This document shows positions 2,657 to 63,893 of a DNA stretch of 64,000 nucleotides, one piece after another. A program made the position numbers and the translations under genes. The stretch comes from Paraburkholderia sp. PGU19. Its GTDB lineage: Bacteria > Pseudomonadota > Gammaproteobacteria > Burkholderiales > Burkholderiaceae. Each line of letters starts with the position of its first letter. Position 1 is the stretch's first letter. The stretch spans positions 1,798,001-1,862,000 of the forward strand of contig NZ_AP023179.1 of assembly GCF_013426915.1 (NCBI RefSeq), written 5' to 3'. The notes under the pieces are model-generated. The model ran no database searches, was not told the origin of the DNA, and was given only the letters and a program-made list of their open reading frames with translations.

Positions 2657-3936
2657 GCCTGCTCCATCATTGCGCGCCACTGGCGATACGCTTCGCGCAT
2701 GCCCGTTTCATCCGTTGCGTGTGCGGTCTTTTCGCCGTTCGCGGCCGTCGTTTCGCGATTCAATCCACGGTTGACGAGAATCGGCACTTCGGGGCCCGCA
2801 TATGAGCCGCGCTGCACGCGTTCCCATGCTTCCGCATCGTCGGGACTGCCGAAACCGAACGGGCCCTGGAAGTGTTCGTGAATGCGCAGGCGCACGCGGT
2901 TCGCTTCGTCGGGGCCGCCGTCCATTGCGAGCGCGACGTGACGGATCTCCGTCTCTTCGGCGGAAATGGGGCGCAGCACGCGGAAGAACGCCATCGACAG
3001 CGCGAGGTTAGGGAACAGATTCAGGTTGAAGCCGACGCCCATCAGCGAGCGCACGATGCGCCGCACTTCCTCCGGCGTGTGACGTTCGGCGAGTTGCGCG
3101 GCCAGTTCGTTGAAGCGCTCGGGCAGCGGCGCGCCGTCGTCCTTGTCGAGGTCGACGAGTGCCGGCACCAGCACGGCGAGGCTATGGCCATTGCCGAGCG
3201 AGCGGCAGAATGCGTCATCGCTCGTCATGAAGCTGGTGATCGCGGCCGCCGTTTCGTCGTCGATCGATTTCATCCACGACTTGTGCACGACCGGGAAGTG
3301 ATACAGGTCCGTCGTGTTCTCCAGCTGGATTTTCCAGTTGCCCTTGAACTTGAACTTGTGTTCGCCATTGGCCTTGATCGGAAAGCCTGCGCCTTGCTTC
3401 ATGAACAGGTCAATCCACGGCTTCGCGCCGCCGAGAAAATCTTCGAGCGGTTCGACGTTCTCGTCGAAGCTCGCGAAGATCAGCCCTTGATAGATGCCGA
3501 CGCGCAGCTTCGCGAGCGGCAGATCGCCTTTCTCGCATACGCCTTCGTAGCCGTCGCCATAGGGCAACGCGCGCAGCGTGCCGTCGAGCGCATACGACCA
3601 GCTGTGATAGGGGCACGTGAAGCCTTTCGCATTGCCCGTGTGTTCTTCGCAAACCGTCGCACCGCGATGGCGGCAGCGGTTCTGCAGCACGTTCACCGCG
3701 CCCGTCTTGTCGCGCACGACGATCACGGGTTGCCGGCCGATCGTGGTGGTGCGGAAGTCGCCCGGGTTCGGCAGTTCGCTTTCATGCGCGACCCAGACCC
3801 AGGTCTTGTAGAAGATGCGTTCGAGCTCGGCTTCGAACAGGTTCGGATCGTAGTACAGCGAGGGCGCGATGCGATCGGCGTGAACGCGTTCGCGCAGCGT
3901 ACTGGTATCGATGGTTTGCCAGGTAGTGTCGCTCAT
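2653..3936 (-). CDS. Rieske aromatic-ring-hydroxylating dioxygenase, alpha subunit
   Basis: 427 residues from the ATG giving MSDTTWQ; the longer frame to 3990 adds an unlikely leader. The Rieske 2Fe-2S motif C-x-H-x17-C-x2-H is complete (Cys88, His90, Cys108, His111). The mononuclear iron site ENTTDLYHFPVVH has the expected Asp210, His213 and His218 in naphthalene-dioxygenase spacing. The protein should hydroxylate an aromatic ring with O2 and electrons from the nearby reductase. It is divergent from the LysR gene across a 176-bp region carrying the 44-bp repeated element. Salicylate-, anthranilate- or halobenzoate-type oxygenases are possible relatives; the substrate is not decided here. Confidence 0.92.
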   Translation of the reverse strand: MSDTTWQTIDTSTLRERVHADRIAPSLYYDPNLFEAELERIFYKTWVWVAHESELPNPGDFRTTTIGRQPVIVVRDKTGAVNVLQNRCRHRGATVCEEHTGNAKGFTCPYHSWSYALDGTLRALPYGDGYEGVCEKGDLPLAKLRVGIYQGLIFASFDENVEPLEDFLGGAKPWIDLFMKQGAGFPIKANGEHKFKFKGNWKIQLENTTDLYHFPVVHKSWMKSIDDETAAAITSFMTSDDAFCRSLGNGHSLAVLVPALVDLDKDDGAPLPERFNELAAQLAERHTPEEVRRIVRSLMGVGFNLNLFPNLALSMAFFRVLRPISAEETEIRHVALAMDGGPDEANRVRLRIHEHFQGPFGFGSPDDAEAWERVQRGSYAGPEVPILVNRGLNRETTAANGEKTAHATDETGMREAYRQWRAMMEQA

Positions 3937-4045
3937 CGGTGTGATGTGTCGGGACGTCGTTATCGAAAGTGAAATCGGAAGAAAGTGCACACAGGTGGTG
4001 TTTCTTTCGCGTTGACATCAGTCTCGCTTTGCACCGATCATGCGT

Positions 4046-4089
4046 CAAATCGATTAAAAATGAACCGGCCAATAAGTCCGGCAAATAAT
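4046..4089. promoter_or_regulatory. Copy 1 of a 44-bp repeated element, candidate LysR operator
   Basis: This stretch starts with a 16-base block (CAAATCGATTAAAAAT), then ATAAGTC, then ATAAT at the end. It matches another 44-base stretch at 6073-6116 at about 31 positions with no gaps. It sits between the divergent dioxygenase alpha gene and the LysR gene, where a LysR regulator normally binds. The two copies have the same orientation relative to the minus-strand genes they precede. Confidence 0.6.
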
Positions 4090-4112
4090 CAAGACCCAGT
4101 CGGAAGCCCACC

Positions 4113-5033
4113 ATGACCTCAATCGATCACGTCGATCTCAATCTGCTGCGCGTGTTTCAGGCGATCGTCGATGAACGCAGTCTCACGAAAGCCGGCGAAA
4201 GGCTAGCGTTGTCGCAACCCGCCATCAGCTATTCGCTGGCGCGTTTGCGCACGCTGTTCGACGACCCGCTGTTCATCCGTACGCGCTCCGGCATGCAGCC
4301 CACGCCGATTGCGCTGGAACTCGCAAGCATCGTGGGCCGCGCGCTGGATACGGTGCGCGAGGCGCTGCGTTATGCGGAGAGCTTTGACCCAGCGACGAGC
4401 ACGCGCACGTTCCGGCTGTCGCTGTCGGATGCGGGAGAAATGGCTTATTTGCCGGCGATCTGCGAGGCGTTGCACGAGCGCGCGCCGCGCGTGAAGCTGT
4501 CGGTCGAGCCACTGCCCGTGGAAGAGATGGAAGATGCGCTGCGTTCGAGCAGGCTCGATTTCGCAATCGGCAATCTGCCGATGTTGATGGCGCGCACGCG
4601 CCATCAACTGCTATTCGAAGAGACGTATGTGTGTATGACGCGCAAGCGCCGCGGCCTGCCGGCAGGTTCGGCGTTGAGTCTCGAACATTTCCTGCAGGCT
4701 TCGCATGTACAGGTGCGCTCCGTCGAGCACAGTCACCATGCGCTCGACGATGCGTTGCGCGCGCAAGGCGTGGGCCGCAACATCGTGCTGCAGTTGCCGC
4801 ACTTCGTGGCGCTGCCTGGCGTGCTGGCTGTGACCGATCTGTTCGCGACGTTGCCGCAAAGGCTTGCAGGTATTCTCAACGGCAACGACGCGTTTCGCAT
4901 CTACACGTTGCCTGTGCCGATTCCACAGGCCACCGTGACGATGCATTGGCACGAGCACTTCCACGAAGACGAAGGCATCGCGTGGATGCGCGATCTGATG
5001 GCCGAAATGGTGAAGCGCTTCGACAAGACGTAG
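4113..5033 (+). CDS. LysR-family transcriptional regulator of the dioxygenase locus
   Basis: 306 residues. An N-terminal winged helix-turn-helix (DLNLLRVFQAIVDERSLTKAGERLALSQPAISYSLARLR, residues 8-46) is followed by a substrate-binding-like effector domain. The helix-turn-helix and the PLFIRTRSGMQPTPIA linker are typical of the NodD/NahR-like branch that controls aromatic catabolism. It is divergent from the oxygenase alpha gene and convergent with the reductase gene, which ends 2 bases away. It probably activates both units through the repeated 44-bp element. The inducer is unknown. Confidence 0.9.
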   Translation: MTSIDHVDLNLLRVFQAIVDERSLTKAGERLALSQPAISYSLARLRTLFDDPLFIRTRSGMQPTPIALELASIVGRALDTVREALRYAESFDPATSTRTFRLSLSDAGEMAYLPAICEALHERAPRVKLSVEPLPVEEMEDALRSSRLDFAIGNLPMLMARTRHQLLFEETYVCMTRKRRGLPAGSALSLEHFLQASHVQVRSVEHSHHALDDALRAQGVGRNIVLQLPHFVALPGVLAVTDLFATLPQRLAGILNGNDAFRIYTLPVPIPQATVTMHWHEHFHEDEGIAWMRDLMAEMVKRFDKT

Positions 5034-6129: not shown

Positions 6130-7110
6130 CTATCGGTTGACGTACACCACGAGCCGCCCGCGGACCTTGCCGTCGAGCACGTCCGGTGCGGCCGCCAGTG
6201 CCTCCGCGAGGCTGATCTCCTTGACCATCGCGGCCAGCCGCGCCGTGCTCAAATCCTGCGCGATGCGCTGCCATGCCTCGACGCGGCGCTCGTGCGGCGC
6301 CATCACGCTGTCGATGCCCGCGAGCGTCACGCCGCGCAAAATGAAGGGCGCAACCGTGGCGGGGAAGTCCATCCCTTGCGCAAGTCCGCATGCGGCGACG
6401 ATCCCGCCATACGTGGTGCCCGCGCAAGCGTTCGCCAGCGTGTGACTGCCGACGGCATCGACGGCCGCGACCCAGCGTTCCTTCGCGAGCGGCTTGCCCG
6501 GCCCGGACAGTTCCGCGCGATCGATGATCTCCTGCGCGCCCAGATCGCGCAGATAGTCCGATTCAGCGGGACGACCCGTCGATGCGATCACGTGATAGCC
6601 GCGTTTCGCGAGCAGCATGATCGCCACGCTGCCGACGCCGCCCGCCGCGCCCGTCACAAGCACCTTGCCTTGCGCTGGCGTGACGCCGTGACGTTCCAGC
6701 GCGAGCACGCATAGCATGGCCGTGTAACCCGCCGTGCCGACGGCCATTGCGTCGCGGGACGTCAGCGGGGCAGGCGTGCGCACGAGCCAGTCACCGCTCA
6801 CGCGCGCGCGTTGCGCGAGTCCGCCCCAATGCTTTTCGCCGACGCCGTAGCCGTTCAGGATCACGTGGTCGCCAGCTTTCCATTGCGCGTGCTCGCTCGC
6901 TTCGACGATGCCCGCGAAGTCGATGCCGGGCACCAGCGGAAAGCTGCGCACGACTGGCGAGCGGCCTGTGATTGCGAGCGCGTCCTTGTAATTGAGCGTC
7001 GACCATTCGACACGTACAATCACGTCGCCTGCGGGCAGATTCGCTTCGTCGATGTCGGTGATGGACGCGCGGCTGCCGGTGTCCTGCTTCTCGATCAAGA
7101 TGCCTTTCAT
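6130..7110 (-). CDS. AcuI/YhdH-family zinc-free medium-chain reductase (acrylyl-CoA reductase type)
   Basis: 326 residues. The N-terminal GroES-like half has the family string [22 protein letters not shown] broken up by loop residues typical of YhdH/AcuI. The NADPH-binding fold has [18 protein letters not shown] around residues 150-167. No zinc-ligand cysteines are present. Family members reduce acrylyl-CoA to propionyl-CoA or act as quinone oxidoreductases. It lies upstream of the reductase on the same strand, but the intervening operator-like element makes a separate promoter for the reductase likely. A role in the aromatic pathway is only inferred from position. Confidence 0.85.
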
Positions 7111-7299
7111 GATTCCGTCCGTTGAGTTCGCCTTGCGTGGGTGCGTATTAGTCTAGGCGAGTCCGGGCGAGCGCGGGCCGTCTGTCCCGGCTTGCGGTGT
7201 TCAACAATGCCGCGCGTCTTTGCTTTCGACGCGCGAGTAGCGGCGCCTTCAAACGCGCGTTGAAGCGAAGTGTTGAAGCGGCGTGACGGCGCAATTGAA

Positions 7300-7320
7300 C
7301 AAACGGCGGCGTGCCGTTTG
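7300..7320 (-). terminator. Hairpin after the Ala/Ser-rich secreted protein gene
   Basis: A perfect 8-bp inverted repeat (CAAACGGC / GCCGTTTG) with a 5-base loop begins 28 bases past the stop codon at 7348. Only a weak T-rich tail follows on the minus strand, so efficiency is uncertain. Confidence 0.4.
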
Positions 7321-7347
7321 TCTTTCGTCGCATGAATGAGGCGTGCG

Positions 7348-7935
7348 CTAGCGTGTGTAGTAGCCGCGCTGCTGCATGCACTTCGCGTAGGCGGTCCAGT
7401 AACGGACCATCGGCGGCTCGGGTGGAGGCGGTGGCGGCATGGCCGCCAGCGAAGCCTCCGACGGCATGCTGGCTCCAGAAGCCGCGAGCGCACCCGATGC
7501 AGGCATCGCGCCCGAAGCCGCGAGCGTGCCCGAAGCACCCGATGCCGCTGCAACCGTCGACGGAGCGGCGACCCCGCTCGCACCGCTGGCTGCCGTTGCC
7601 GTCGCTGCCCCGCTTGCGCCTGCTGGGGCGGACGCCGCCATCGCGCCCGATGCCCCCGAGGCGCCCATCGCGGAAGGCAAGGGCGGATTGACAGGCGAGG
7701 GCGCAACGATAGGCCGCGGCGCGACGGCGGCCGCCTTGCCGGGTGGCGGCGGACGTTGCGACTCGTGCGCCATGTTCACGTGCGTCGTCTTGTTGGCATC
7801 CGCGTAGCACGCGGCCGTGTCGACGGCCTGTTGTCCCGGGCTCTGGCTGCGTCCCGGATAGGTCAACGGCTGCTGCGCAACGGATGCGCCGCTGACGACG
7901 AAAAGCGCGATTGCAGCATGGGCGAAGCGTGTCAT
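7348..7935 (-). CDS. Secreted Ala/Ser/Gly-rich low-complexity protein of unknown function
   Basis: 195 residues from the ATG giving MTRFAHAAIALFVVSGASVAQQ, a classic signal peptide cut near residue 21. The middle is low complexity: an AASGASG-type repeat occurs about ten times (roughly 7440-7670), flanked by a Pro run (PPPPGK) and PPPPPPEPP. The C-terminus (VRYWTAYAKCMQQRGYYTR) is not repetitive and looks folded, with one Cys; another Cys sits near the mature N-terminus. An envelope-exposed linker or wall-spanning protein is possible. No family is recognised. Confidence 0.7.
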   Translation of the reverse strand: MTRFAHAAIALFVVSGASVAQQPLTYPGRSQSPGQQAVDTAACYADANKTTHVNMAHESQRPPPPGKAAAVAPRPIVAPSPVNPPLPSAMGASGASGAMAASAPAGASGAATATAASGASGVAAPSTVAAASGASGTLAASGAMPASGALAASGASMPSEASLAAMPPPPPPEPPMVRYWTAYAKCMQQRGYYTR

Positions 7936-8159
7936 AAGCGAGCGGACTCCCTGGCGAAGTCTTGGTCTTGTCGGCGCGGATGCGCGTCGCGAGGTACGCA
8001 TGAAGCCATGACGTGCAACATGGCCGTCGGGGCCAGTCAGGCCATCGCAGGCCGAAGGATAGCTATTCCAGCATATCGCCTCGCAGCGGCGCAGCACGCC
8101 AGAAGCACGCCATTCGTCGCCATTTTCCGTGCTGCAACGCGATATGGGTCACAGCATGA

Positions 8160-14493: not shown

Positions 14494-16022
<1,529 letters not shown>

Positions 16023-16087
16023 CCAGAGCTTCGCGCTTAGAAGTTGAGCGCTCACACTTGTCGGCTGTTAATTGAAGACAGGCTCAG

Positions 16088-16164
16088 GGGTCTGTAGCTC
16101 AGTCGGTTAGAGCACCGTCTTGATAAGGCGGGGGTCGATGGTTCGAATCCATCCAGACCCACCA
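16088..16164 (+). tRNA. tRNA-Ile (anticodon GAT)
   Basis: 77 bases with an encoded CCA. The acceptor stem is GGGTCTG paired with CAGACCC. The anticodon loop TTGATAA (16120-16126) has GAT at 16122-16124, and the T arm is GGTTCGAATCC. Position in the 16S-23S spacer is standard for this family. Confidence 0.97.
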
Positions 16165-16215
16165 GCGTCTTGTCTGCGGTGGCTGATCGCAAAACCCCCT
16201 GTGTACTGTATGACT

Positions 16216-16291
16216 GGGGGATTAGCTCAGCTGGGAGAGCACCTGCTTTGCAAGCAGGGGGTCGTCGGTTCGATCCCGTCATCCTCCACCA
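16216..16291 (+). tRNA. tRNA-Ala (anticodon TGC)
   Basis: 76 bases with an encoded CCA. The acceptor stem is GGGGGAT paired with ATCCTCC (one wobble). The anticodon loop in CCTGCTTTGCAAGCAGG reads TGC. It follows tRNA-Ile by 51 bases in the rRNA spacer. Confidence 0.97.
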
Positions 16292-16389
16292 ATTCCCAAT
16301 GCCTAGCGTTCAGTGTGAACCGAGTGCTATGCATTGGCGATTGAGCCAGTCAGCGAATGATGTAAGGCATAGCGCTTTATATCGGCTGT

Positions 16390-16401
16390 CGTTCTTTAAC
16401 A
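16390..16401 (+). promoter_or_regulatory. boxA in the 16S-23S spacer
   Basis: CGTTCTTTAACA, followed by AATCAGGAAG, repeats the leader boxA core. It re-establishes antitermination ahead of 23S. Confidence 0.65.
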
Positions 16402-16598
16402 ATCAGGAAGAAGTAGTAAAGAGATTCACGAAAGCGTGCTTAGAGATGGGCGCGTGAGTAGGTGAATCAGGGTTGTGATTGTATCAATGTATTTTTTGAG
16501 TTCATCGAAAGACGAACCTGGAATACGGCACAACGCGAATACTCAACCTGTAGCGAGTGAGTCTGGCGTGGCAACACGAAGAGACACACCCGTTATAG

Positions 16599-19476
<2,878 letters not shown>

Positions 19477-19621
19477 ATAACAGGTGTGTCTTACCCCGAG
19501 AGGGTGAGCGGAACACACAGGTTGAGATCGGTGTTGTGCCAGAAACAACACAACCCATCCCCTCTTTACGCTTCTTCCAGATTGGCTGTGGCGCACCACA
19601 ATGCGACGCAGCAACCCGTCA

Positions 19622-19738
19622 TGCCTGATGACCATAGCGAGTCGGTACCACCCCTTCCCATCCCGAACAGGACCGTGAAACGACTCCACGCCGATGATAG
19701 TGCGGATTGCCCGTGTGAAAGTAGGTAATCGTCAGGCT
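19622..19738 (+). rRNA. 5S ribosomal RNA
   Basis: About 117 bases. The 5' GCCTGA pairs with the 3' TCAGGC to form helix I. Conserved features include CCATCCCGAACAG and GTGAAACG. It lies 145 bases after 23S. Ends may shift by a few bases. Confidence 0.93.
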
Positions 19739-51994: not shown

Positions 51995-52854
51995 CGCGAC
52001 AGTCGATGCAGCGCTCGATAAACGCACCGCGACGCGCGCTGATCGTGACGGCCGACGACTTCGGTCTGCATGTGCGGATCAACGAAGCCGTCGAGCGCGC
52101 GCATCTGCACGGTGTGCTGACGTCGGCGAGCCTGATGGTGTCCGCGCCCGCCTCGGCGGATGCCGTGCGCCGCGCGCACCTTTATCCGAGCTTGCGCGTC
52201 GGTTTGCATCTCGTGCTCGCGGACGGCGTCCCCATGCTCGCCACGCATCTGATTCCCGCGCTCGTCGACAAACATGGGCGGCTCGGCCACCGGATGGTGC
52301 GCAACGGCTTTCGCTTTTTCCTCCTTCCTGAAGTGCGGCGCCAGTTGAAGGCGGAAATCCGCGCGCAGTTTCAGGCCTTCGCACGCACTGGGCTTACGCT
52401 CGATCACGTCAATACGCACAAGCACTTTCATCTGCATCCGACGGTGCTCGCGCTGATTATCGAAGTGGGCAGCGAATATGGGCTGAAGGCGATGCGTTTG
52501 CCGTACGAGCCGGGCTCGCCTGCGTGGATCAGGCCGTGGATGGCACGCGTGCGCAAGCAGCTAGATAATGCAGGTATTGCACACAACGACTACGTGATCG
52601 GCATGTCGCAGACAGGACAAATGGACGAGGCGGTGCTGCTCGCCGCGCTTGCACGACTGCCGGAAGGCGTCGGCGAGATTTATTGCCATCCCGCCGTGGC
52701 CGGAGAGGGCGCGATCACGCCGACGATGCAGACGTACCGGCACAGCGACGAACTGGATGCACTGCTGTCCACGCGTGTCGCGTCGGCGATTGCCGCGAGC
52801 GGGGCGATCACGGGTGGTTTCGCCGACGTGTTCGCGCAGCAGTCTTACCTATGA
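51991..52854 (+). CDS. hpnK: HpnK, hopanoid deacetylase (ChbG/YdjC-like)
   Basis: 287 residues. The family metal site appears as IVTADDFGLHVRINEAVERAHL (Asp22-Asp23 first), then VNTHKHFHLHP, and EIYCHPA near the end. HpnK removes the N-acetyl group left by HpnI. It overlaps both hpnJ and hpnL by 4 bases, so the cluster is translationally coupled. Confidence 0.92.
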   Translation: MTRQSMQRSINAPRRALIVTADDFGLHVRINEAVERAHLHGVLTSASLMVSAPASADAVRRAHLYPSLRVGLHLVLADGVPMLATHLIPALVDKHGRLGHRMVRNGFRFFLLPEVRRQLKAEIRAQFQAFARTGLTLDHVNTHKHFHLHPTVLALIIEVGSEYGLKAMRLPYEPGSPAWIRPWMARVRKQLDNAGIAHNDYVIGMSQTGQMDEAVLLAALARLPEGVGEIYCHPAVAGEGAITPTMQTYRHSDELDALLSTRVASAIAASGAITGGFADVFAQQSYL

Positions 52855-53890
52855 TCAAGTGGCTCAAATGGCTGGGATTGCCCGCGGGCATCGCGGTGCT
52901 GATCGCATTGGCGTTGCACGGCGGCATCGACGACGTGCTGCACGCGATCCGTTCGGCAGGCTTCGCGCTGCTGTGGCTCGTGCCGCTGCATGCGCTGCCG
53001 TTGCTGCTGGATGCCCAGGCGTGGCGGCTTCTTCTCGGCAGAAGTGCGTCGCTCGCGTATCTGTGGTGGATCGCGACCGTGCGTGAGGCGGTGAGCCGGC
53101 TGCTGCCTGTCGCAAGCATCGGCGGGAGTTCGTCGGCGTGCGGCTCGCGCGCTGGAAGATCGACGACACGAGCATGGTGTGCGCGTCGGTGATCGTCGAG
53201 GTGCTGGTAACACTGGCCGTCCAGTATGTGTTCGCCGCGCTCGGGCTCGTGTTGATCGTCGCGCAGACGGGCCACGATGGTTTGCTCGCGACGGTCGGCG
53301 CGGCGTTGCTGCTGTCGTTGCCGCTGCCCGTCGTGGTGTTCCTGCTGCTCAGGCGCGGCGGGCTATTTCACGCGATCGAGCGCTGGTCCGCGCGTCTGCC
53401 GATGAGCGCGCACTGGAACGTCGAGCGCATCGGTGGCGCGCAGCTCGATACCGCGATCGATGCGTTGCTGCGTGAGCCGCGTCTGCTGCTGCGCGCGTTC
53501 GTCTGGCAGTTTGCCGGCTATCTGCTCGGCGCGTCGGAGGTGTATGTCGCGCTGTGGATGCTCGGGCATCCCGTGTCCATCGGCGGCGCGATCGCCGTCG
53601 AAGCGCTCACGCAGGCCGCGCGCCATGCGGCGTTCTTCGTGCCGTCGGGGCTCGGCGTGCAAGAGGCTGTCGTCGTGTTGCTTGCGCGAATGTTCGGCGT
53701 CGACGAGCAGGCGGCGCTGTCGCTTGCGCTCGTCAAGCGGATGCGCGAGGTCCTGTTCGGCTGTGTGGCGCTGGCATCGTGGCAGGCGGCAGAGCTCGTG
53801 CGCAACCGTGGCGGCGGTGTCGCAAGAAACCCTGCGCTGAGCCCTGTCGAGCATCGCGCGCAAGCCTCCGTGCGGCAGCGTTCTCGTTGA
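52851..53890 (+). CDS. hpnL: HpnL-like flippase-fold membrane protein (frameshifted in this assembly)
   Basis: The start ATG overlaps the hpnK stop. The first frame gives about 92 residues (MIKWLKWLGLPAGIAVLIALAL through SRLLPVASIGG). The second frame, from about 53126 to 53890, gives the rest of the polytopic protein (VRLARWKIDDTSMVCASVIVE onward). One extra G in the run at 53124-53126 would read GGEFVGVRLARW and restore about 346 residues. The fold is that of lysylphosphatidylglycerol synthetase/UPF0104 membrane proteins. HpnL is thought to move or handle hopanoids at the membrane. Confidence 0.82.
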
Positions 53891-55647: not shown

Positions 55648-57054
55648 TCAATCGCTCATTGCCGCCGCGCGCCGCAGAAATCCCAGCGCCCGCTCGTTGT
55701 CGAGATACGCGGTGTTGAACCGGACCCACGGCGTCACCTCGCCGTGCGGCCGGTAGTAGCTGCCCGGCTGCACGGTGATGCCGGCGCGAGCCGCCTCGGC
55801 GACGAACACATCCGAATTCGGCACGCCCGGCACGCGCGCCCACACCAGCGTGCCGCCGCACGGCTCGTCGAACACTTGCCAGCCGATGCCATTGAGCAAT
55901 TCCACCGCGGTCGAAATGGCGCCATTCACGCGTCGCCGCAGCCTTTCCAGATGCTTGCGATACGTGCCGCGCTCGAGCAGCGCGGCTACGACGCGCTCGC
56001 TAAAGCGCGTGCCACCGAGGCTGGTGAGCGCCTTCACTTCGACGAAGTGCTTGACCAACCCCGCTTCGGCGGCGATATAGCCGAGCCGTAGCGACGACGA
56101 CAGGCTCTTCGAAAACCCGCCGATATACACGACGCGCGTCAGCCGGTCGAGCGACGCGAGACGTTGCGTGGGAATCGCCTGGAAATCCGCGTAGACGTCG
56201 TCTTCGACGATCATGAAGTCGTGTTCCTGCGCAAGTTGCAGCAGCCGGAAGCCGACGTGCGGCGCGACGTTCGTGCCCGTCGGATTGTGAAAGACCGTGT
56301 TGATGAAAAAGAGCTTCGGCCGATGCTCCTTCAGCAGCGCCTCGACGGCTTCGACATCCGGCCCGCTCGACAGGCGCGGCACGCCGACCAGCTCGATACC
56401 CTGCAGCTTGAGCAGCCCGAACAGGTTGAAGTAGCCGGGATCTTCGACGAACACGGTATCGCCGGGCTTGAGCAGCATCCGCACGACGAGATCGAGCGCC
56501 TCGCTCGCACTGTTCGTCACCATGATGTTCTGTGGCTCCGCCGCCACGCCGACGAAGGCCAGACGCTGCTCGATCTGCAGCCGCAACACCGGATCGCCTT
56601 GTGGAATCGCGTAGTCGATCAGACTGCGCGCGTCCGTGCGTGACGCCTGACGGATCGCCTGGGCAATGCCTTCGACGTCGCGCCACGCCTCGGGAATGAA
56701 ACCGATCGACAGGTTCAGCACCTCGTCGGGCCGCTCGAACTGCCGCAGGATCTGATCGGATTCGGGCGTCGCGCGGATTGCGTCGAGCCCGCGCGTGGCG
56801 CGCGGCGCCTTTTCGAACTGTTCGGCGACGTAGTAGCCGGAACCGTGCTTGGGCTGCAGCAGGCCGCGCGTGGCGAGCCGGTCGTAGGCCTCGATGACGG
56901 GAAAGCGGCTGATGTTGTGCTCGGCCGCGAACTTGCGGATAGACGGCAGGCGCATGCCGACGCGCAGTTCGCGCGACAGGATCAGCGCTTCGACCTGACC
57001 GACGATCTGTTCCGTCAGCGGGGTAGCCGTTGCGACGTCGAGGGTGATCTTCAT
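55648..57054 (-). CDS. MocR-type regulator (GntR winged helix fused to aminotransferase-like domain)
   Basis: 468 residues from the ATG preceded by AGGGAGG; earlier starts up to 57090 are unlikely. A GntR helix-turn-helix covers residues 1-70 (ILSRELRVGMRLPSIRKFA). The rest is a fold-type I aminotransferase-like domain with VTNSASEALDLVVRMLL, NTVFHNPTG, and the PLP Lys in GGFSKSLSSSLRLG. MocR proteins bind PLP and a metabolite and usually control a divergent neighbour. Here that neighbour is the peptide/HDO/aminotransferase operon. Confidence 0.92.
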   Translation of the reverse strand: MKITLDVATATPLTEQIVGQVEALILSRELRVGMRLPSIRKFAAEHNISRFPVIEAYDRLATRGLLQPKHGSGYYVAEQFEKAPRATRGLDAIRATPESDQILRQFERPDEVLNLSIGFIPEAWRDVEGIAQAIRQASRTDARSLIDYAIPQGDPVLRLQIEQRLAFVGVAAEPQNIMVTNSASEALDLVVRMLLKPGDTVFVEDPGYFNLFGLLKLQGIELVGVPRLSSGPDVEAVEALLKEHRPKLFFINTVFHNPTGTNVAPHVGFRLLQLAQEHDFMIVEDDVYADFQAIPTQRLASLDRLTRVVYIGGFSKSLSSSLRLGYIAAEAGLVKHFVEVKALTSLGGTRFSERVVAALLERGTYRKHLERLRRRVNGAISTAVELLNGIGWQVFDEPCGGTLVWARVPGVPNSDVFVAEAARAGITVQPGSYYRPHGEVTPWVRFNTAYLDNERALGFLRRAAAMSD

Positions 57055-57120
57055 TCGCCTCCCTGTCGACCAGAGCTGGCGCGCTAGCACCTTACTTTGG
57101 TCCCATCAAGATGATTGCTC

Positions 57121-57324
57121 TGAAAGTGTTCATGCGAGTTTGCCGAACACTTCACGCAAATTGATCGAAAGTGTTCATTCCAGTTATCGCAGTTTACCGG
57201 AACAATAGGTCCAACGAGTTAGTTTGTTTGCATGAATTTTTAAGTGAAATTCTCGGTAAATCAGTGGGTTAGTTTGAATTCGATGAATTCCTCGAACATT
57301 GGCAAAAACGAGCGAACACTTTAT
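57121..57324. promoter_or_regulatory. Four AAAGTGTTC-type boxes, candidate MocR operators
   Basis: Box 1 GAAAGTGTTCAT at 57122-57133 and box 3 at 57167-57178 are identical direct repeats 45 bases apart. Boxes 2 (GAACACTTCA, 57145-57154) and 4 (GAACACTTTAT, 57314-57324) are inverted. MocR regulators usually bind repeated half-sites in the divergent region, and these are the only such repeats here. Confidence 0.6.
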
Positions 57325-57390
57325 CTGATTCCGCAAAAACGGAACTGTACGAACTGAATTTCCGAGGCCGTGCAATAAAAGATACGACCC

Positions 57391-57424
57391 AGCAGAACCT
57401 GAGAGAAAGCAGAACCTGAGAGAA
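57391..57424. repeat. Perfect tandem 17-base repeat in the operon leader
   Basis: AGCAGAACCTGAGAGAA occurs twice back to back (57391-57407 and 57408-57424). The core CAGAACCTGAGAGA also occurs once at the other end of the operon (63856-63869), in the same orientation. Confidence 0.7.
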
Positions 57425-57489
57425 ACAACGAACGGCGGCCATTGACGAGAATCCGGCTGGACCGCCCAGAGCTACATCGACCTTCAGGC

Positions 57490-57520
57490 GCGCTCCCTTT
57501 TGCGGGAGCGCACGTTTTGT
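57490..57520 (+). terminator. Leader terminator or attenuator hairpin
   Basis: A perfect 8-bp stem GCGCTCCC/GGGAGCGC with a 6-base loop, followed by ACGTTTTGTT. It lies about 340 bases upstream of the peptide gene, so it could end a short leader transcript. Confidence 0.5.
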
Positions 57521-57855
57521 TCGTCGAAAGCGTCTGGCTGCGGCGTCAGTCCGACACTCGGGCACGCATTCGGTAACCGCGCGCGAGGCTGCGATCGGCG
57601 GCATCGGGCCGATAAAACAACACATACGTCTGACTGCGCCGGAGCGGCCGGGAAGCCGCGCCAGGCGACAGATCCACGGCGGAGAACGGGGCTACAAGTT
57701 AAGCCTGTTGCGCTCATCGGCCTGCCGCCATTGGCGAGGCGATGCTGCCCGCCACACGGCTTTGGGTTTCTGGCTCCGGGTGTGAAAGAACTGGCCACGG
57801 TGGTGGACAGCTTGTTAAGCAGTGCAGAGTTAACGCCAACCCCAAGGAGATTGAG

Positions 57856-58002
57856 ATGACGACCCAAGTGCAGGTTCAGCAAGCGCAGCCGCAACAACAA
57901 ACGCAGGCGCAGTCGCAAACGGACAGGCAAGACGACAAGAAAATCACTGTCGTGGTCAAGCCGCGCAAGGCGCGTCCCGTCCTGATCCCGGTTCACCTGT
58001 GA
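57856..58002 (+). CDS. Candidate RiPP precursor peptide, 48 residues
   Basis: The ATG follows CCAAGGAG by 7 bases, a strong ribosome-binding site. The first 25 residues contain 12 Gln (for example QVQVQQAQPQQQTQAQ). A predicted beta-strand KKITVVV (residues 28-34) is followed by a cationic, Pro-containing tail KPRKARPVLIPVHL ending in His-Leu. There is no signal peptide, Cys, Ser/Thr-rich core or Gly-Gly cleavage site. It opens an operon of RRE-HDO proteins, an aminotransferase and an exporter. The beta-strand is suited to docking on an RRE domain, and the C-terminal segment is the likely core. This is inference from layout. Confidence 0.75.
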   Translation: MTTQVQVQQAQPQQQTQAQSQTDRQDDKKITVVVKPRKARPVLIPVHL

Positions 58003-58048
58003 TGAACGCGCCGGCACCGTTGCGTGCCGGCCACGAACGGAGGCCGTC

Positions 58049-59037
58049 GTGATGGACGACATTTTTGAACCACAGGCGTTTGTGCTGGCGGGGAAGTGTC
58101 TCAGCACGTCGCCTTCGCTCGTCATCGAAGACGACGAGCATCAATATGAATTTCCGGCGCCCGTCGAAGGTGAAGACGCGGCGTCCCTGATCCGCGCGCT
58201 GCGCTCCGGCGTCAAGGCGGAGGAAGTGATCTCCCGCTATTCGCCGTACGAACAGAAAGTGTTCGACCGTCTGAAGGAGCTGCAACTGGTGCGCGCGGTG
58301 AAACCCGCGCTGGCCCGCAGTGGCCTCGACGTGCTGCTCGAACTCGAAGATCTCGCCAACGATCTGCTGTATCGCACGCTCTATACGAACGTGTTCTGGG
58401 AAAAGTGCGCGTCCGCGAGCACGGGCGCTGACATTCCCTCAATGTGATCCACGGGATGATCGTGGAGAACTACCATTTCCTGTTCCGCGAAAGCTATTTC
58501 GACGCGCCCGTTCTGTCGTATGTCGCCAATACGGGCGTGCGGCTGTCGATGAACGAGTTCTACGCGGAAGAGTACGGGCACGACGAACTGTTGCTCAAGG
58601 CGCTGACCACGCTCGGCGTCACGCGTGAGGATCTCGCGCGCACGGTGCCGCTGCCGCAAACCATGGCGCTGTGTAACTCGCTGGCTTTCTGGGCACATAG
58701 CGACCCGCTGTTCTTCTTTTCGACGCTCGGCATTCTCGAAGGCAAGGACATCAAGCAGGATTCCTTCCTCGACGCCGCATATCGGATCGGCGTCGATCCC
58801 GTTTTGCTCAAGCCCGTGAAAGCGCATTCCGACATCAACCTGAACGGCGGCCACGGCAGCCTCACGCGCAAGATCTTCTCGCGAATTCCCGCCATCGCCG
58901 ATGCGGACGTGCGGCGCATGCGCGCGCAAACGCATCTGTTCATCGAACTGTACGACCAGTTCTATACGGGCATCTGGGAACACTATTCGACGTCCCCGGC
59001 GCTGTTGCGCACACTCGACGTCGACGGGGAGGCATGA
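58049..59037 (+). CDS. RRE-HDO fusion 1: precursor-binding-like domain plus heme-oxygenase-like diiron oxygenase (frameshifted in this assembly)
   Basis: Start GTG at 58049, or ATG at 58052, after CGGAGG. Residues 1-95 look like a PqqD/RRE winged helix: a beta-hairpin (SLVIEDDEHQYEF), then ASLIRALRSGVKAEEVISRY and VFDRLKELQLV. The HDO part has MIVENYHFLFR, YAEEYGHDELLLKAL and HSDINLNGGH. The frame breaks at about 58436-58438: DIPSM-stop in one frame, LNVIHGMIVENYHF in the other. One extra C restores about 329 residues. The third helix has Asn where the sister proteins have Glu (HSDINLNGGH versus HATINDEFDH), which may alter metal binding. Overlaps gene 2 by 4 bases. Confidence 0.75.
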
Positions 59038-60031
59038 TGCAGGCCACGACCGCAGCAGATCTTTTCGCCGCGCCGCGCTTTCGTCCCGGCGTGCAGCTGA
59101 TCGAAGAGCACAACGGCCTGACGCTCGACTATCGCGAGCAATCGTGTTCTGTCGTCGCCGACAGCCAGGGCGCGCTCAAGGCGTTCGTCGATTCGCTCCG
59201 GCGCGGCGACACGTCGATCCCCGAACTGAAGCGCCGTCATCCGGAGCTTGCGTCTGAAGTCGACGGGCTGCTCGAGGAGTTCGACCGGCTCGGCCTGTTG
59301 ACCGAAAGCGCGTTTCCCGCGCCTCGAGGCTGTCTGTCGGGCGAGGAGTTCTATCACCGGCTCAGAAAGTTCGCCGCCGAAACGATCGAGGCGAATTCGA
59401 CCTCGCGTCTGTATCAGGGCTGTGCGACCGCACGTTGCCGAAGAGCGCGCTGATCGGCTATGCGCTCGAATATTTCTATATCGTGCGCGAGGCGCCGGGT
59501 CTGATTGCGCCTTCACTCGCCCATGCCGAACCCGTCAAGGTGCAGAAGCTGCTGCAAGGCTTTCTCGCCTCGGAGCTGAATCACGACGACATGCTGCGGC
59601 AGTCGCTGCAGGCCGTTTCCATCCGCACCGACAATCTCGACTATCTGGTGCCGCTGCCCGCCACGTTCGCGCTGTGCGCGTCTTTGGGCGTGTATGCGCG
59701 CCAGCATCCGTTGAGCTTCAAGTCGCTGCTGTTCCTGTTCGAGCAGCCGAGCGTGAGCTTTCATATCGAACTGGCGAACTATTGCCGCGAGACGGGCATC
59801 CCGGAAGGCTTCTGGCGTCCGATCGCCCGTCACGCGACGATCAACGACGAGTTCGATCACGAAGACATTTCGCTCAGCCTGCTTGCCGAAATCGAGGCCA
59901 TCTCGCCTGAAGAGCAGATGACGGTCAGGAAGCACGTGATGCTCGCCATCGAAACCATGGTGCTGCAGGAGAACCAGATTCTCGATTTCTACGGCCGCCA
60001 GCCCGTCGTCAAACCGCGCATCTTCGCCTGA
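59034..60031 (+). CDS. RRE-HDO fusion 2 (frameshifted in this assembly)
   Basis: Start at the ATG overlapping the previous stop. Residues 15-95 have the clearest RRE/PqqD-like pattern of the three: VQLIEEHNGLTLDYREQSC (hairpin) then GALKAFVDSLRRGDTSIPEL and VDGLLEEFDRLGLL. The HDO part carries IGYALEYFYIVREA, FLASELNHDDMLRQSL and HATINDEFDHEDI. In helix 1 the His of copies 1 and 3 is replaced by Phe-Tyr (EYFY). The frame breaks near 59419-59421: one extra base gives LYQGLCDRTLPKSALIGYALEY and restores about 332 residues. It ends 8 bases before gene 3. Confidence 0.75.
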
Positions 60032-60039
60032 GAGCCGTC

Positions 60040-61542
60040 ATGGAACGCTGGGATATCGATCGATACAGACGGCCGGCGCTGGTGCCGTGCGAGGTGTCGG
60101 CGGGCTACGACGGCTTGACGATCGGCGTCGGCGACGATGCCATCGACCTGTCGTTCGAAGGCGTCGCGTGCGACGAGGTGGCCGAGGTCGTCACGCAACT
60201 GATGCGGCCTTCGTCCGATATCTGGATTCGGCTCAACGAAGGCGCGTGCCCTGCGTGGATTCGCACGCTGACGGTGCAACTGGATGCGCTATCGCTGATC
60301 GAAGAGACGGATAGCGGCATCGACCGCGTCACGTCCGATGCGCAGCGCGCGATGGCGTTGTGCGGTGAAGTGGGGCAGCGACTGGCCGCTGTTGTCGGGC
60401 GTCGGATTGCGATGTACGAGGATGTACTTGGCGTCGTCCATCAGATGCTCACTTCGGATGCGCACGATCGCGACACGACGCCTGGCGCGTTCCCGTTTTC
60501 GGGCAAGGAGAGCGGGCAGTTCGCCGACAACTTCGCGCTTCAGTCGCTCCATTTCCAGTTGGCGTATGCGCGCCAGAACGCGCCGGAACTCGTGTTCGCT
60601 TGGCAACACGTGCTCGATGTCGTGTTCCGGCAGCTACGCTGGCATCCAGCTGCAACTACTCCGGATGACGCGTCTCTGGAGCATTTCCGCAGCGTCGCAT
60701 CGCTCGATCCCGTCGATCTGGAAATGTATCTGCTGTCGTTCGCGCATTTCGTCGAGATCGCGCCGTTGCGTGTCGGCAGGCGCATGACGTCGGCGGATAC
60801 GGAGCGCTTCAGCGAGCCCTGCAGCGGTCTCGCGCTCGCCGCGCGTGCCGAGCGTCTGCTGCTCAGCGCGCTCGATCAGTTGGGCAGCAACGCGTATGCA
60901 TCGGCGGCGCTTGAGAGCCGTGAAATCACGCCGCTCGTGAAGGGGCTGTACATCGAGCAGTATCACGTGACCGACCGCTTCGTCGAAATACTTGGACCGT
61001 TGCTGTCGCGCCGCCTCAAACGCAATCTGCGCGCGCGGCTGTTTCAGTACTTCCAGGAAGAATACGGTCACGAAGCATTCGAACTCGCCACTTGCGTCGC
61101 GCTCGGCATGAACGAAGCCAAGGTCCGCGCATCGGTGCCGCTGCCGCTTACCGCGCTCTATATCGACGCGTACACGGTGCTGGCGCATCGTCTGCCCACT
61201 GCATTCTTCACGTCGATCATGGTCACGGAAGGGTTGCGCGACCAGCACAGTCCCGTTCACGAGCACATCGCCGCGCTGGTCGAAAGCGCACTGCATGCGG
61301 GCGATATCGTCGCAAAGCATGGCGAGACGAACGACGAGCTGAATCATCCGAGCCTGTCGCGCCTGTTCCTCGCCGACGTTCCGCACGTGAGCGCGGCGGA
61401 GCAGCGCTACAGCCTCGAAGCCGCGCTCTTCATGCTCGAAGCGAATATGCGGCAACTGGAGTCGGTCGCGTTCTTTTACGGCGATCAGACGCAGCTCCAG
61501 TTTCATGGACTTCGCGATGGCAGGAGGCCGCTTGAAGTCTGA
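60040..61542 (+). CDS. RRE-HDO fusion 3, long form, 500 residues
   Basis: Intact. Residues 10-90 are RRE-like (VSAGYDGLTIGVGDDAIDLSF hairpin in two parts, then ACPAWIRTLTVQLDALSLIE). A roughly 170-residue segment follows without clear motifs; it may be a degenerate HDO domain. The active-type HDO domain occupies about 255-480 with GLYIEQYHVTDRFVE, YFQEEYGHEAFELATCV and HGETNDELNHPSL, a full set of Glu/His metal ligands. It shares (V/I)E(N/Q)YH and EEYGH with copy 1, so copies 1 and 3 are closer to each other. Confidence 0.8.
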   Translation: MERWDIDRYRRPALVPCEVSAGYDGLTIGVGDDAIDLSFEGVACDEVAEVVTQLMRPSSDIWIRLNEGACPAWIRTLTVQLDALSLIEETDSGIDRVTSDAQRAMALCGEVGQRLAAVVGRRIAMYEDVLGVVHQMLTSDAHDRDTTPGAFPFSGKESGQFADNFALQSLHFQLAYARQNAPELVFAWQHVLDVVFRQLRWHPAATTPDDASLEHFRSVASLDPVDLEMYLLSFAHFVEIAPLRVGRRMTSADTERFSEPCSGLALAARAERLLLSALDQLGSNAYASAALESREITPLVKGLYIEQYHVTDRFVEILGPLLSRRLKRNLRARLFQYFQEEYGHEAFELATCVALGMNEAKVRASVPLPLTALYIDAYTVLAHRLPTAFFTSIMVTEGLRDQHSPVHEHIAALVESALHAGDIVAKHGETNDELNHPSLSRLFLADVPHVSAAEQRYSLEAALFMLEANMRQLESVAFFYGDQTQLQFHGLRDGRRPLEV

Positions 61543-62814
61543 CCATGGTGCAGACGAGGGAAACGAACGCGAGGTTGAGCGCGCTCAGCGCTTCGATCTC
61601 GTCAATCCCTATTGGGAAAAATTCCTCGACGAAGCGGGCCTCGACATGACGGGTGCGCGCGGCGACGGCTGCTATATCGAAACCGCCGACGGCCGCGCGT
61701 TGCTCGATTGTCTCGCCGGTTTTGGCACGGCGAATCTGGGCACGCGCACGAGTCGCTGCTCGCGCGTTTTGCCGATGCGTTGCAGCGCACGTCGGTGAAC
61801 GTGTTTCCGTTCGAATGCGCCGAGTCTCAGCTCGCGCTCGCCGACAAGTTGCTCACGCTCAGCGGCCAGCGCTTCCAGAAAGTGTTCTTCGCGACCACGG
61901 GCGCGGAGGCCGTCGAAAGCGCCGTGAAGTTCGCGATGACGAGCACGGGACGCACCGACGTCGTCGCATTCCGCGACGGCTTCCACGGCCTGTCGATGTT
62001 CTCGTCGTTCATGACGGGCAATCCGTTCTGGACCGAGGCGTTGCGCTGGAAGCCCGGCAACGTCCATCACGTCGACGCGCGGAACTTCGCCGCGCTCGAA
62101 GACACACTCGCGAGCCGCAAGATCGCTGCCGTCGTGTTCGAGCCGGTGGCGGGGTCATCGGCGGCGCAGCACTGGACGGCGGACACTGCGTCCCGTCTCG
62201 CTGCGCTGTGCCGCTCGACGGGAACGAAGCTGATCGCCGACGAGGTGTATTGCGGCCTCGGCCGTACGGGCACCTGGTTCGGCATCGACGCAATCGGCAT
62301 GGACGTTAAGTCAACCGAGGCATCCGCAGTGCCCGACATGATCGTCGTATCGAAAGGGCTGACGGGCGGATTGGTGCCGCTCTCAGCCGTGCTGATGAAC
62401 GACGGCGATTTCGACGCCGTGTTCGGCGCGCCCGGCAAGGCGAAAGTGCAGGGTTCGACCTTCGGCGGCAACCGGCTCGCGATGCAGTGCGGGCTGATCG
62501 TGCTCGACCTCGTCGAACGCGGACGGCTCGTCGAGAACGCGGCCGCGATGGGCGCGCTGATCGGCGAGCGCATCGCAGCGCGTTTCGATTCGCGCGTGAC
62601 CTTGCACGGCAAGGGCCTCGCGCTCAGCCTCAAGCTCGACGCGCGCCTCGACAGGAGCATGACCGATGTGTGGCTGGATCTGATCGATGGCGGCGTGCTG
62701 GCGATGCCGAATTCGGCCGCACCGGATTCGCTGCGCCTGTCGCCGCCGCTGATTTTCGGTGTGGATGAAGTGGAAGTTCTGATCGACCGACTCGACGAGG
62801 CGCTACAGCCATGA
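61517..62814 (+). CDS. Class III PLP aminotransferase (frameshifted in this assembly)
   Basis: Start taken at 61517 (MAGGRLKSDHG), or 61505; both overlap the HDO3 3' end. The N-terminus has NPYWEKFLDEAGLDMTGARGDGCYIE, DGRALLDCLAGFGTANLG, then a frame break at about 61736-61741 in GGG; one extra G gives GHAHESLLARFADALQ. The remainder has FATTGAEAVESAVKFA, LIADEVYCGLGRTG and the PLP Lys in VVSKGLTGGLVP (codon 62353-62355). Restored length is about 433. It would aminate a carbonyl on a peptide-derived or small-molecule intermediate. It overlaps the exporter gene by 4 bases. Confidence 0.85.
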
Positions 62815-63893
62815 ACGCGAACAATCAGAAGCAGAAGGAAGGCGCCGGGTACGCCGCGCTGCTCGTGGCGCTGTGCTGGTGGGGCCTGATGCCGCTGTAC
62901 TACTGGCATCTGAAGGAAGTGAGCGCGCCGGAGATGCTCGCGCATCGGGTGTTCTGGTCGTTCGTGGTGCTGTCGGCCGTGATTGCGCTCAAGCCCGCGT
63001 TGCGGCAACACATGGGCGACTGGCGCTCGTTCGCGCTCGCGCTATTGCCGGCGGTTTTGCTGTCGGCGAACTGGGTTGTGTATATCCTGGCCTCGGTGAC
63101 GGGCAACGCGTTACAGGCGAGTCTCGGATATTTCCTGAATCCGCTGCTGTCGGCTGCGCTCGGCATCGTTTTTCTGAACGAGCGGCTTAACGGTCTGAAA
63201 GCGGCGGCGCTTGCGCTCGGGCTGGCAGGCACCTTCGTCCAGTGCTACGCGCATGGCGGCGTACCCGTGTTCGCCGTGATGCTGACGGTGACGTTCTCGC
63301 TGCTCGGACTCACGCGCAAGGTGTGGCCGACGCGGAACGCGATCGTCAGCACCTGGCGCGAAACTGTCGTGATGATGCCGTTCGCCCTCGGCTATTTCGG
63401 CTATCTGATGTCGCATCATGCGCTTGCGTTCACGTCGTTCGGCGTCGACGCGTCGGTGCTGATGATGCTGGCGGGGCCGCTGACCGTCGTGCCGCTCGCG
63501 CTCTACGCGTATGCGATGCCACTCGTTTCGATGACGGAATCGGCCGTGATGCAATACGTGACGCCGACCGTGACGTTCATCCTCGCGCTCACGGTCTTCC
63601 ACGAACGGCTGACGACCGTCGATCTGACAGGCTATGGGCTGATCTGGTGCGGCCTTGCGCTCGCGACCTATGCGTCGGTCCGGCGCCGCCCGCTTGCGCT
63701 CGCTGTCGCCGCGCCAGGAACGGCGCAGGGAACGCAAAGCGTGCAGGGCGTGCAAGGTGCGAGCGTTGGTGGACAGAACGTGTCCTTTCTTACGTCGCAC
63801 AAAAAGACGCCAGCTTCCGCTGGCGTGAATAGGTTCTGGCATTCCGAGGGCCGTCCAGAACCTGAGAGACGGTGCGAACAGTCTGACGCATAA
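62811..63893 (+). CDS. RarD/EamA-family DMT transporter, candidate exporter
   Basis: 360 residues starting at the ATG overlapping the aminotransferase stop. About ten membrane spans in the DMT pattern, with GYAALLVALCWWGLMPLYYWHL and HRVFWSFVVLSAV as in RarD. The C-terminal 65 residues after YASVRRRP are polar, do not look like RarD, and run through a minus-strand terminator hairpin, so the true end may be earlier or the frame may be damaged. It likely exports the product, or its precursor, of this operon. Confidence 0.82.
   Translation: MNANNQKQKEGAGYAALLVALCWWGLMPLYYWHLKEVSAPEMLAHRVFWSFVVLSAVIALKPALRQHMGDWRSFALALLPAVLLSANWVVYILASVTGNALQASLGYFLNPLLSAALGIVFLNERLNGLKAAALALGLAGTFVQCYAHGGVPVFAVMLTVTFSLLGLTRKVWPTRNAIVSTWRETVVMMPFALGYFGYLMSHHALAFTSFGVDASVLMMLAGPLTVVPLALYAYAMPLVSMTESAVMQYVTPTVTFILALTVFHERLTTVDLTGYGLIWCGLALATYASVRRRPLALAVAAPGTAQGTQSVQGVQGASVGGQNVSFLTSHKKTPASAGVNRFWHSEGRPEPERRCEQSDA
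63807..63863 (-). terminator. Minus-strand structured 3' end: long hairpin plus terminator
   Basis: Read on the minus strand, AGGTTCTGG pairs with CCAGAACCT (63855-63863 with 63831-63839, 15-base loop). A second stem ACGCCAGC/GCTGGCGT (63826-63807) follows, then CTTTTTG. This is a good rho-independent terminator for a transcript entering from the right edge of the window. It lies inside the apparent C-terminal coding region of the exporter. Confidence 0.55.

Follow-up and report, generated by a model that had tools for sequence, protein, structure and literature searches.

The operon at positions 57856-63893 of the window, a stretch of 64,000 nucleotides from the 11.25 Mb genome of Paraburkholderia sp. 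PGU19, encodes a short peptide, three proteins with the domain PF14518 (in Pfam, an iron-containing redox enzyme of heme-oxygenase-like fold), a class III aminotransferase and a RarD-family transporter, with a MocR-type regulator opposite. The first gene (57856-58002, + strand) encodes a glutamine-rich, precursor-like peptide of 48 residues that ends RPVLIPVHL and is preceded by the ribosome-binding site AAGGAG at 57844-57849 (+), much as a first-pass annotation of this DNA had described. The three PF14518 genes, here named for the heme-oxygenase-like diiron oxidases (HDOs), are the only matches to that model in the whole genome at an E-value of 0.001. HDO1 (58049-59037, +; PF14518 2.3e-8) and HDO2 (59034-60031, +; 1.7e-9) have the same architecture, a winged-helix-like N-terminal domain followed by a heme-oxygenase-like oxidase domain. 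HDO3 (60040-61542, +; 3.7e-7), of 500 residues, has an N-terminal domain homologous to that of HDO1, a middle region without family assignment and a C-terminal HDO domain; its closest named relatives are mostly from Paraburkholderia. All three carry PF14518 at the C-terminus, as that annotation proposed, but only HDO3 is intact. HDO1 is divided into pieces 58049-58447 and 58444-59037, and HDO2 into 59034-59453 and 59435-60031, with PF14518 found in the C-terminal piece of each; at the related locus L042 they are intact, at 329 and 332 residues.

The aminotransferase (61505-62814, +; PF00202 3.9e-55) does belong to class III, but its gene is split by a one-base shift in this assembly into pieces 61505-61798 and 61612-62814 (433 residues intact in L042). 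The last gene (62811-63893, +) encodes a RarD-type exporter of the EamA family of drug/metabolite transporters (DMT), with a TIGR00688 score of 145.7 bits above the cut-off of 130.15. Genes overlap by 4 bases, as had been stated, at the HDO1/HDO2 and aminotransferase/RarD junctions, and the facing regulator (55648-57090, -) is indeed a divergent gene of the MocR/PdxR type, combining a GntR winged helix-turn-helix (Pfam 5e-15) with an aminotransferase fold (Aminotran_1_2, 2e-35).

The proposal made for this operon supposed that a peptide would be found beside homologous HDO genes in other genomes, and one is conserved there. It adjoins HDO1 in all 14 of the other loci first examined, as a close relative of the 48-mer in 12 of them and, in L046 and L047, as a 27-28-mer that keeps only the second half. 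A back-translated pattern of the tail, P-V-L-I-[P/A]-V-H-L-stop, scanned over 144 Paraburkholderia genomes, is present in 17, once each, and its reversed control in none of the 144. These are 17 of the 18 genomes with HDO1 (E 1e-30), and the 126 genomes without HDO1 all lack the pattern. In the eighteenth, G1175, the peptide immediately ahead of HDO1 is longer and ends in PTLIAIHL. The peptide stands beside HDO1 in 16 of 17 loci from the genus draw, a set overlapping the 14, and the seventeenth has a variant tail, recognised from its upstream open reading frames (ORFs).

Selection on the peptide was estimated from 21 loci with the 48-residue form (the window included, some genomes present twice; 16 distinct DNA sequences). 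The ratio of nonsynonymous to synonymous substitution (dN/dS) is 0.03 over codons 29-48 and 0.13 over the glutamine-rich first 28 codons; within the last 15 codons dN is 0 and dS 0.54. Shifted frames of the peptide give ratios of 2.3 and 2.7. The peptide is under strong purifying selection, beyond what chance would give. Because of this constraint and of the co-occurrence with HDO1, a chance ORF is rejected.

Across lineages the C-terminal consensus is P-[V/T]-L-I-[P/A]-[V/I]-H-L, looser in Rhodococcus, and a short hydrophobic strand takes different forms by lineage (ITVVVKP, VILVKP, FLVQIRP and YLVTVNKP). Otherwise dissimilar peptides share the tail, among them those of Tistrella (...PVLIAVHL), of G1175 and G1359 (...PTLIAIHL) and of Rhodococcus (...IVAVAVHL); what the Robbsia, Tistrella and Rhodococcus versions retain is chiefly the C-terminus, and the shortest peptides have about 17-28 residues. 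A search of protein databases with the peptide alignment (E up to 10, 32 candidates scored) returned 18 proteins, including a 35-mer ending PVLVPVHL. The longest contig is 13061 both for this 35-mer and for an HDO1 homologue, which suggests, without proving, that the two are linked. Several of the Paraburkholderia 48-mers are annotated as hypothetical proteins, and the Robbsia 27-mer is absent from the PLSDB gene table, itself incomplete.

Of the three oxidases, HDO1 is the best conserved between near and distant clusters: comparing L046 and L047 with the window, the HDO part of HDO1 is 73-77% identical and HDO3 32-33%. A protein search in which the 8000 best word-matching candidates were scored gave at least 325 HDO1 homologues, some of them from Chromobacterium, Collimonas, Sphingomonas and Enterovibrio; 95 of the best 120 of these 325, together with L042, form an alignment of 96 sequences. 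Glu140, Glu175, His178, Glu231, His260 and His269 (L042 numbering) are invariant in all 96, and Asn264 is present in 95. The equivalent metal-site residues are invariant in 17 of 17 HDO2 and 24 of 24 HDO3 sequences. The residues are presumed to map onto the numbering of UndA and CADD. The retained set consists of E-x2-H, a Glu, two His and one extra invariant Glu, and in all three HDOs an Asn occupies the usual Asp position, giving H-x3-N-x4-H in helix 3. The presumed metal-binding assignments follow an HDO review (PMC13108848) and, as general background, UndA and CADD. The best match of the HDO1 profile in the PDB is MboA (9ypi; E 1.6e-4), in a region outside the HDO1 N-terminal domain, and since MboA reads H-x3-D-x4-H in the alignment, the Asn stands at a probable ligand Asp.

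The N-terminal domains had been described as RRE/PqqD-like (RRE, RiPP recognition element; RiPP, ribosomally synthesized and post-translationally modified peptide) in all three proteins; only that of HDO1 matches PqqD directly. In hhalign comparisons built on a 96-sequence alignment of the HDO1 N-terminus, with E-values that refer to single comparisons and not to a database, HDO1 matches PqqD with a probability of 92.7, over 42 helical columns only, and the IclR winged helix-turn-helix with 83.3; HDO2 scores 3.3 and 42.4, and HDO3 0.7 and 0.3. Ten column shuffles of each reach at most 2.5 against PqqD, and the addition of more sequences changes the scores little. Compared among themselves, the N-termini give 96.6 (HDO1-HDO2), 94.5 (HDO1-HDO3) and 90.5 (HDO2-HDO3), with a range of 86-97 over both directions. 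Single HDO1 homologues match Pfam models of DNA-binding winged helices (best IclR, 4.7e-6), and PqqD is matched by two of the 96 (best E 0.12); the N-terminal domains of the copies in the window match none of the Pfam families. It is well supported by these comparisons that one N-terminal domain is common to the three HDOs and that in HDO1 it is a winged helix. Its assignment as a putative RRE is only partly supported.

Companion genes were compared by tblastn of cluster genes against the stretches examined at nine loci, with Pfam applied to two ORFs. Plasmid p4 of Robbsia andropogonis has a MocR gene, a 27-residue peptide (MSQATTKQPVIVVKPRNPRPVLIPVHL), HDO1-3, the aminotransferase, an EamA transporter and a GNAT gene. 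L046 and L047 have a Robbsia-type peptide with HDO1-3, aminotransferase, EamA and GNAT genes; L046 also has MocR, and L047 is preceded by LysE and 2-oxoglutarate-Fe(II) oxygenase genes, with no MocR match in 19 kb. In L135 (genome G1175) and L142 (G1359) a peptide ending PTLIAIHL and HDO1-3 are accompanied by a glucose-methanol-choline (GMC) oxidoreductase. Plasmid pTM3 of Tistrella mobilis encodes a peptide ending KPVLIAVHL, a thiamine diphosphate (ThDP) enzyme, an HDO1-HDO2 fusion and HDO3. For the aminotransferase, EamA/RarD, GNAT and MocR of the remaining clusters, the stretches examined gave no match in the two GMC clusters or in the Tistrella cluster. A Rhodococcus gordoniae plasmid carries a peptide ending in KKKRTIVAVAVHL, two HDO proteins, a major facilitator superfamily (MFS) carrier and a GNAT about 30% identical to the Robbsia-type GNATs, with no HDO3 match at E 1e-15.

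The aminotransferase, the exporter and MocR are thus missing from some related clusters. The window MocR is 68% identical to that of L046 and 58% to that of Robbsia, and has no match in the stretches examined of L047, L052, L053, L135 and L142. No aminotransferase match was obtained at E 1e-5 in the examined stretches of G1175, G1359, Tistrella and Rhodococcus, clusters in which a GMC enzyme, a ThDP enzyme or neither of the two was found; the presence of the aminotransferase varies from cluster to cluster. Exporter and GNAT occur together in the L046, L047, Robbsia and Rhodococcus clusters.

Outside Paraburkholderia, HDO1 is rare in random draws. Whole-genome draws from the class (1 of 369), the order (1 of 399) and the phylum (1 of 398) recovered the genome under study and no other, and the family draw recovered 5 of 239, that genome included; scoring in these draws was confined to the 5 or 9 leading first-look candidates of each genome, and misses are possible. 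A scan of viral contigs gave 103 stretches with the pattern, none of them a relative, and phage records gave no match to the Rhodococcus HDO1.

A ribosomally encoded short precursor conserved with the enzymes of its cluster, as expected of a RiPP pathway, is present here. It is probable, with reservations set out below, that this is a RiPP-type operon in which winged-helix-HDO enzymes oxidise the C-terminus of a dedicated precursor to a small product. The peptide is taken for a precursor because its C-terminus is kept across phyla and because, in the clusters examined, it lies beside oxidases that each bear a docking-like domain and whose nearest solved relative by sequence oxidises a peptide. 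The substrate role, the mode of docking, the reactions, the product and its size are inferred. Such a precursor would begin with an N-terminus that varies and is in part dispensable, continue with a short hydrophobic strand, perhaps the docking segment, and close with a constrained C-terminus, perhaps the substrate. HDO1 and HDO2, joined in Gram-negative clusters by HDO3, would hold the strand with their RRE-like winged-helix N-terminal domains, so that the C-terminal residues reach the metal site in the heme-oxygenase-like part of the protein; with O2, these residues could there be desaturated, hydroxylated or cleaved at a C-C bond. An alcohol or carbonyl formed in this way might then be handed to a lineage-specific enzyme, here the class III aminotransferase and elsewhere the GMC oxidoreductase or ThDP enzyme; that tailoring enzymes vary around a constant HDO core suggests a common oxidised intermediate. 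The product would more plausibly be a small amine or amino-acid-like C-terminal piece than a long peptide, leaving the cell in several lineages through a DMT/EamA or MFS carrier and in some acetylated by GNAT, possibly for self-protection, with MocR tuning expression where present. A small excised product is favoured because several clusters have small-molecule exporters and GNAT and because the window operon lacks a peptidase or peptide exporter, though this is the weakest step of the reading.

Several observations weigh against such a pathway. The Asn at the usual ligand Asp could alter or abolish diiron chemistry, and three of the operon's own genes are interrupted in the window assembly. 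The PqqD match of HDO1 is confined to those 42 helical columns with IclR scoring nearby, the N-termini of HDO2 and HDO3 have no direct PqqD match, and the N-terminus of a fourth HDO, in L142, scores 92.7 with IclR and 1.8 with PqqD. No peptidase gene is found in the window operon or among the Robbsia cluster genes. The L046 EamA, the window RarD and the L046 GNAT have no relative at E 1e-5 in the stretches examined of the G1175, G1359 and Tistrella clusters, so export and acetylation would not be general. The neighbourhoods examined belong to a minority of the at least 325 HDO1 homologues, and the hairpins that follow the peptide gene in L011, L142 and L052 are no better than shuffles.

The interruptions raise the further matter of whether the copy in this strain is decaying or already dead, which would concern no other copy and would be compatible with the pathway just described; we consider this unlikely, though of the alternatives it fares best. 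Comparison with a syntenic relative of 95% identity shows a one-base shift in each of HDO1, HDO2 and the aminotransferase. Among 54 ORFs of that relative, 49 match the window and seven are flagged as split: the three operon genes, one gene at about 52851-53830, and three unclear cases (a difference at a C-terminal end, a short low-identity ORF, and a frame across the peptide region that is probably not a gene). Three of six operon genes are therefore shifted, against one other clear and three unclear cases among 49 ORFs over 64 kb, which favours decay. Against it, the genes for the peptide, HDO3 and RarD are unbroken and closely resemble those of the relative, a database protein 99.5-100% identical to both HDO1 pieces is intact, and the single-base gaps, of which four were examined and three adjoin a run of four identical bases in the relative, also fit assembly error. 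At the 14 other loci HDO1 and HDO2 are always single ORFs; the aminotransferase is uninterrupted in 12, cut short in L005 and shifted in L011. A one-base shift against the 95%-identical relative likewise interrupts the gene at 52851-53830 (+).

The first-pass annotation did not recognise this gene set as a described class, and none matching it was found in the literature searched. Nor were winged-helix- or RRE-HDO fusions with a short precursor found described in the open literature searched, outside which most subscription papers lie. The PQQ (pyrroloquinoline quinone) pathway is similar in using a very short precursor as a scaffold from which a small product is made, a PqqD docking domain and an enzyme of heme-oxygenase fold. 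PqqC is metal-free, whereas the metal-site residues of the HDOs are kept here; the operon has no radical S-adenosylmethionine (SAM) enzyme PqqE, and the precursor core is unrelated. Thiovarsolin clusters share a heme-oxygenase-like protein within a RiPP cluster, VarO, for which dehydrogenation of an Arg side chain is suggested (PMC6511847). Thiovarsolin needs YcaO/TfuA and a repeating precursor (PMC6511847); the peptide of this operon is short and has a fixed Leu C-terminus, and the three HDOs here carry winged-helix-like N-termini. Membership among thioamidated RiPPs of this type was rejected for the window operon, as neither YcaO nor TfuA occurs among its genes or the annotated Robbsia genes; the other clusters were not searched for them. 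MboA of mangotoxin biosynthesis desaturates a residue of a peptide, a tripeptide (PMC13185094), and has the H-x3-[D/N]-x4-H spacing in common with the HDOs here. Its tripeptide comes from ATP-grasp ligases and not from the ribosome, and it uses a dedicated reductase (PMC13185094), of which none is seen in this operon; MboA also has Asp where these HDOs have Asn.

Daptides offer a precedent for a pathway of oxidation followed by transamination at the peptide C-terminus. The likeness extends to a putative RRE-type delivery, a PF00202 aminotransferase and chemistry expected at the precursor C-terminus, and the order of steps is known there on a C-terminal Thr (PMC10036551). That the Paraburkholderia and Robbsia clusters have a class III aminotransferase fits such a route, as would the GMC enzymes of two clusters, which could oxidise an alcohol, and the methyltransferase ORF lying 1.3 kb beyond the GMC gene of L142 (11433-12605, +; SAM-methyltransferase domain). 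However, the peptide ends in Leu, not Thr, and the daptide set of RRE-DUF, alcohol dehydrogenase (ADH)-type decarboxylase and methyltransferase (PMC10036551) is absent from the window operon. No ADH-type decarboxylase, methyltransferase, RRE-DUF, ATP-binding cassette exporter or protease is found in the window operon or among the annotated Robbsia genes. The aminotransferase scores 155 bits against the 450 of the daptide model, its piece 61612-62814 reaches the cut-off of none of the 25 NCBIfam families listed, daptide_amino included, and it was not found in four clusters. EamA/DMT carriers, moreover, usually move small metabolites. Daptide membership was rejected for the window operon, and a daptide-like route is improbable.

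Somewhat less probable again is that the peptide serves an HDO complex as a small structural subunit or as its activator, and that the complex in truth acts on a free amino acid or some other small molecule. About a dozen HDOs have been functionally validated, and those characterised act mostly on amino or fatty acids (PMC13108848). Amino-acid-type exporters and a MocR regulator surround the peptide in several clusters, and peptides of only about 17-28 residues would suit such a role. A shared docking substrate nonetheless better explains why three HDOs whose N-terminal domains are homologous accompany a single peptide, and MboA, the closest solved HDO by sequence, takes a peptide. That the peptide is instead a regulatory leader, an attenuator or translational coupler, is very unlikely: it is first in the operon, has a hairpin behind it and ends in His-Leu codons, but it is the amino-acid sequence that is under selection, with synonymous codons varying, the tail persists in Actinomycetota and Alphaproteobacteria despite other spacing and enzyme sets, there is no visible run of repeated regulatory codons, and no Rfam family is matched in 57000-58100 up to E 1, a range in which riboswitch and leader candidates were thereby rejected.

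The hairpin in question is an 8-bp stem-loop between the peptide and HDO1 genes (58010-58031, +; z-score -2.1), identical in L042 and with scores of -2.0 in L046, -3.8 in L047, -6.0 in Robbsia and -5.5 in Rhodococcus; L051 and L053, like L047, have a stronger hairpin than the window at this position. The gap between MocR and the operon contains operator-like direct repeats of GAAAGTGTTCAT at 57122-57140 and 57167-57185, with a partial inverted copy at 57301-57322; the repeats are conserved in five relatives aligned with the window and may be the site at which MocR binds. Two copies of CAGAACCTGAGAGA in the 5' leader (57393-57423, +) are complementary to an ncS54-like small RNA at the other end of the operon (63799-63872, -; Rfam RF02871, 53.3 bits against a gathering threshold of 43), antisense to the 3' end of rarD. 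This small RNA is at the same place in seven of eight relatives tested and is not in L046. It holds the perfect complement of one or two 14-nt leader sites in the window and in 12 near loci, on seven of which the small RNA model itself was run, and the best ncS54 copy elsewhere in the genome has 13 of 14 bases in common with the complement. The duplex energy was discarded as support for pairing, as its value of -47.0 is no better than the mean of -49.4 for 150 random 140-nt window segments, and the evidence given here is for this reason limited to the perfect complement of 14 nt. In L046, positions 2263-2323 (+), close to its distant peptide operon, match a Betaproteobacteria toxic small RNA family. 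Elsewhere in the window, 14494-19737 (+) is an rRNA operon (16S, 23S, 5S) with two tRNA genes.

Further HDO genes occur in other settings. In L142 the fourth winged-helix-HDO protein (3189-4193, -) is divergent from the peptide operon, with a short ORF beside it (about 4444-4746, +), and has Asp at the position where the three HDOs have Asn. L143 has a 16-residue ORF, MRIKRSKRVCLMNDGL (6816-6866, +), with AAGGAG before it, followed by a winged-helix-HDO relative (6977-7954, +); a further HDO-like ORF, recognised by eye, and a class I/II aminotransferase are also present, and the locus is possibly a sister system with another tiny precursor. On an Enterobacter chuandaensis plasmid (L167, 1937-14174) two annotated HDO-type proteins are found with an M14 metallopeptidase, a class I/II aminotransferase, a nucleotidyltransferase and an MFS exporter. 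The L143 protein and one of the Enterobacter proteins have H-x3-N-x4-H.

It may be that the clusters extending from Pseudomonadota to Actinomycetota represent a new class of RiPP, defined by tandem winged-helix-HDO fusions with an H-x3-N-x4-H metal site, a small amine or amino-acid-like metabolite cut by oxidation from the V-H-L end of a precursor of 17-60 residues, and interchangeable aminotransferase, GMC and ThDP enzymes; this wider proposal is tentative, and we hold it with rather less than even confidence. HDOs carry out unusual oxidations, and a set that apparently shares one encoded substrate makes the question of that substrate directly testable, with the conserved last eight residues predicting the site of the chemistry. 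If the proposal is correct, RiPP biosynthesis would gain a family of docking-domain enzymes and, after PqqA, a further type of very short scaffold peptide, and the tail motif together with an H-x3-N-x4-H HDO would be a searchable signature for precursors liable to escape annotation. Other tiny precursors in sister systems, such as the 16-mer of L143, would then point to a superfamily of short-peptide/HDO pathways.

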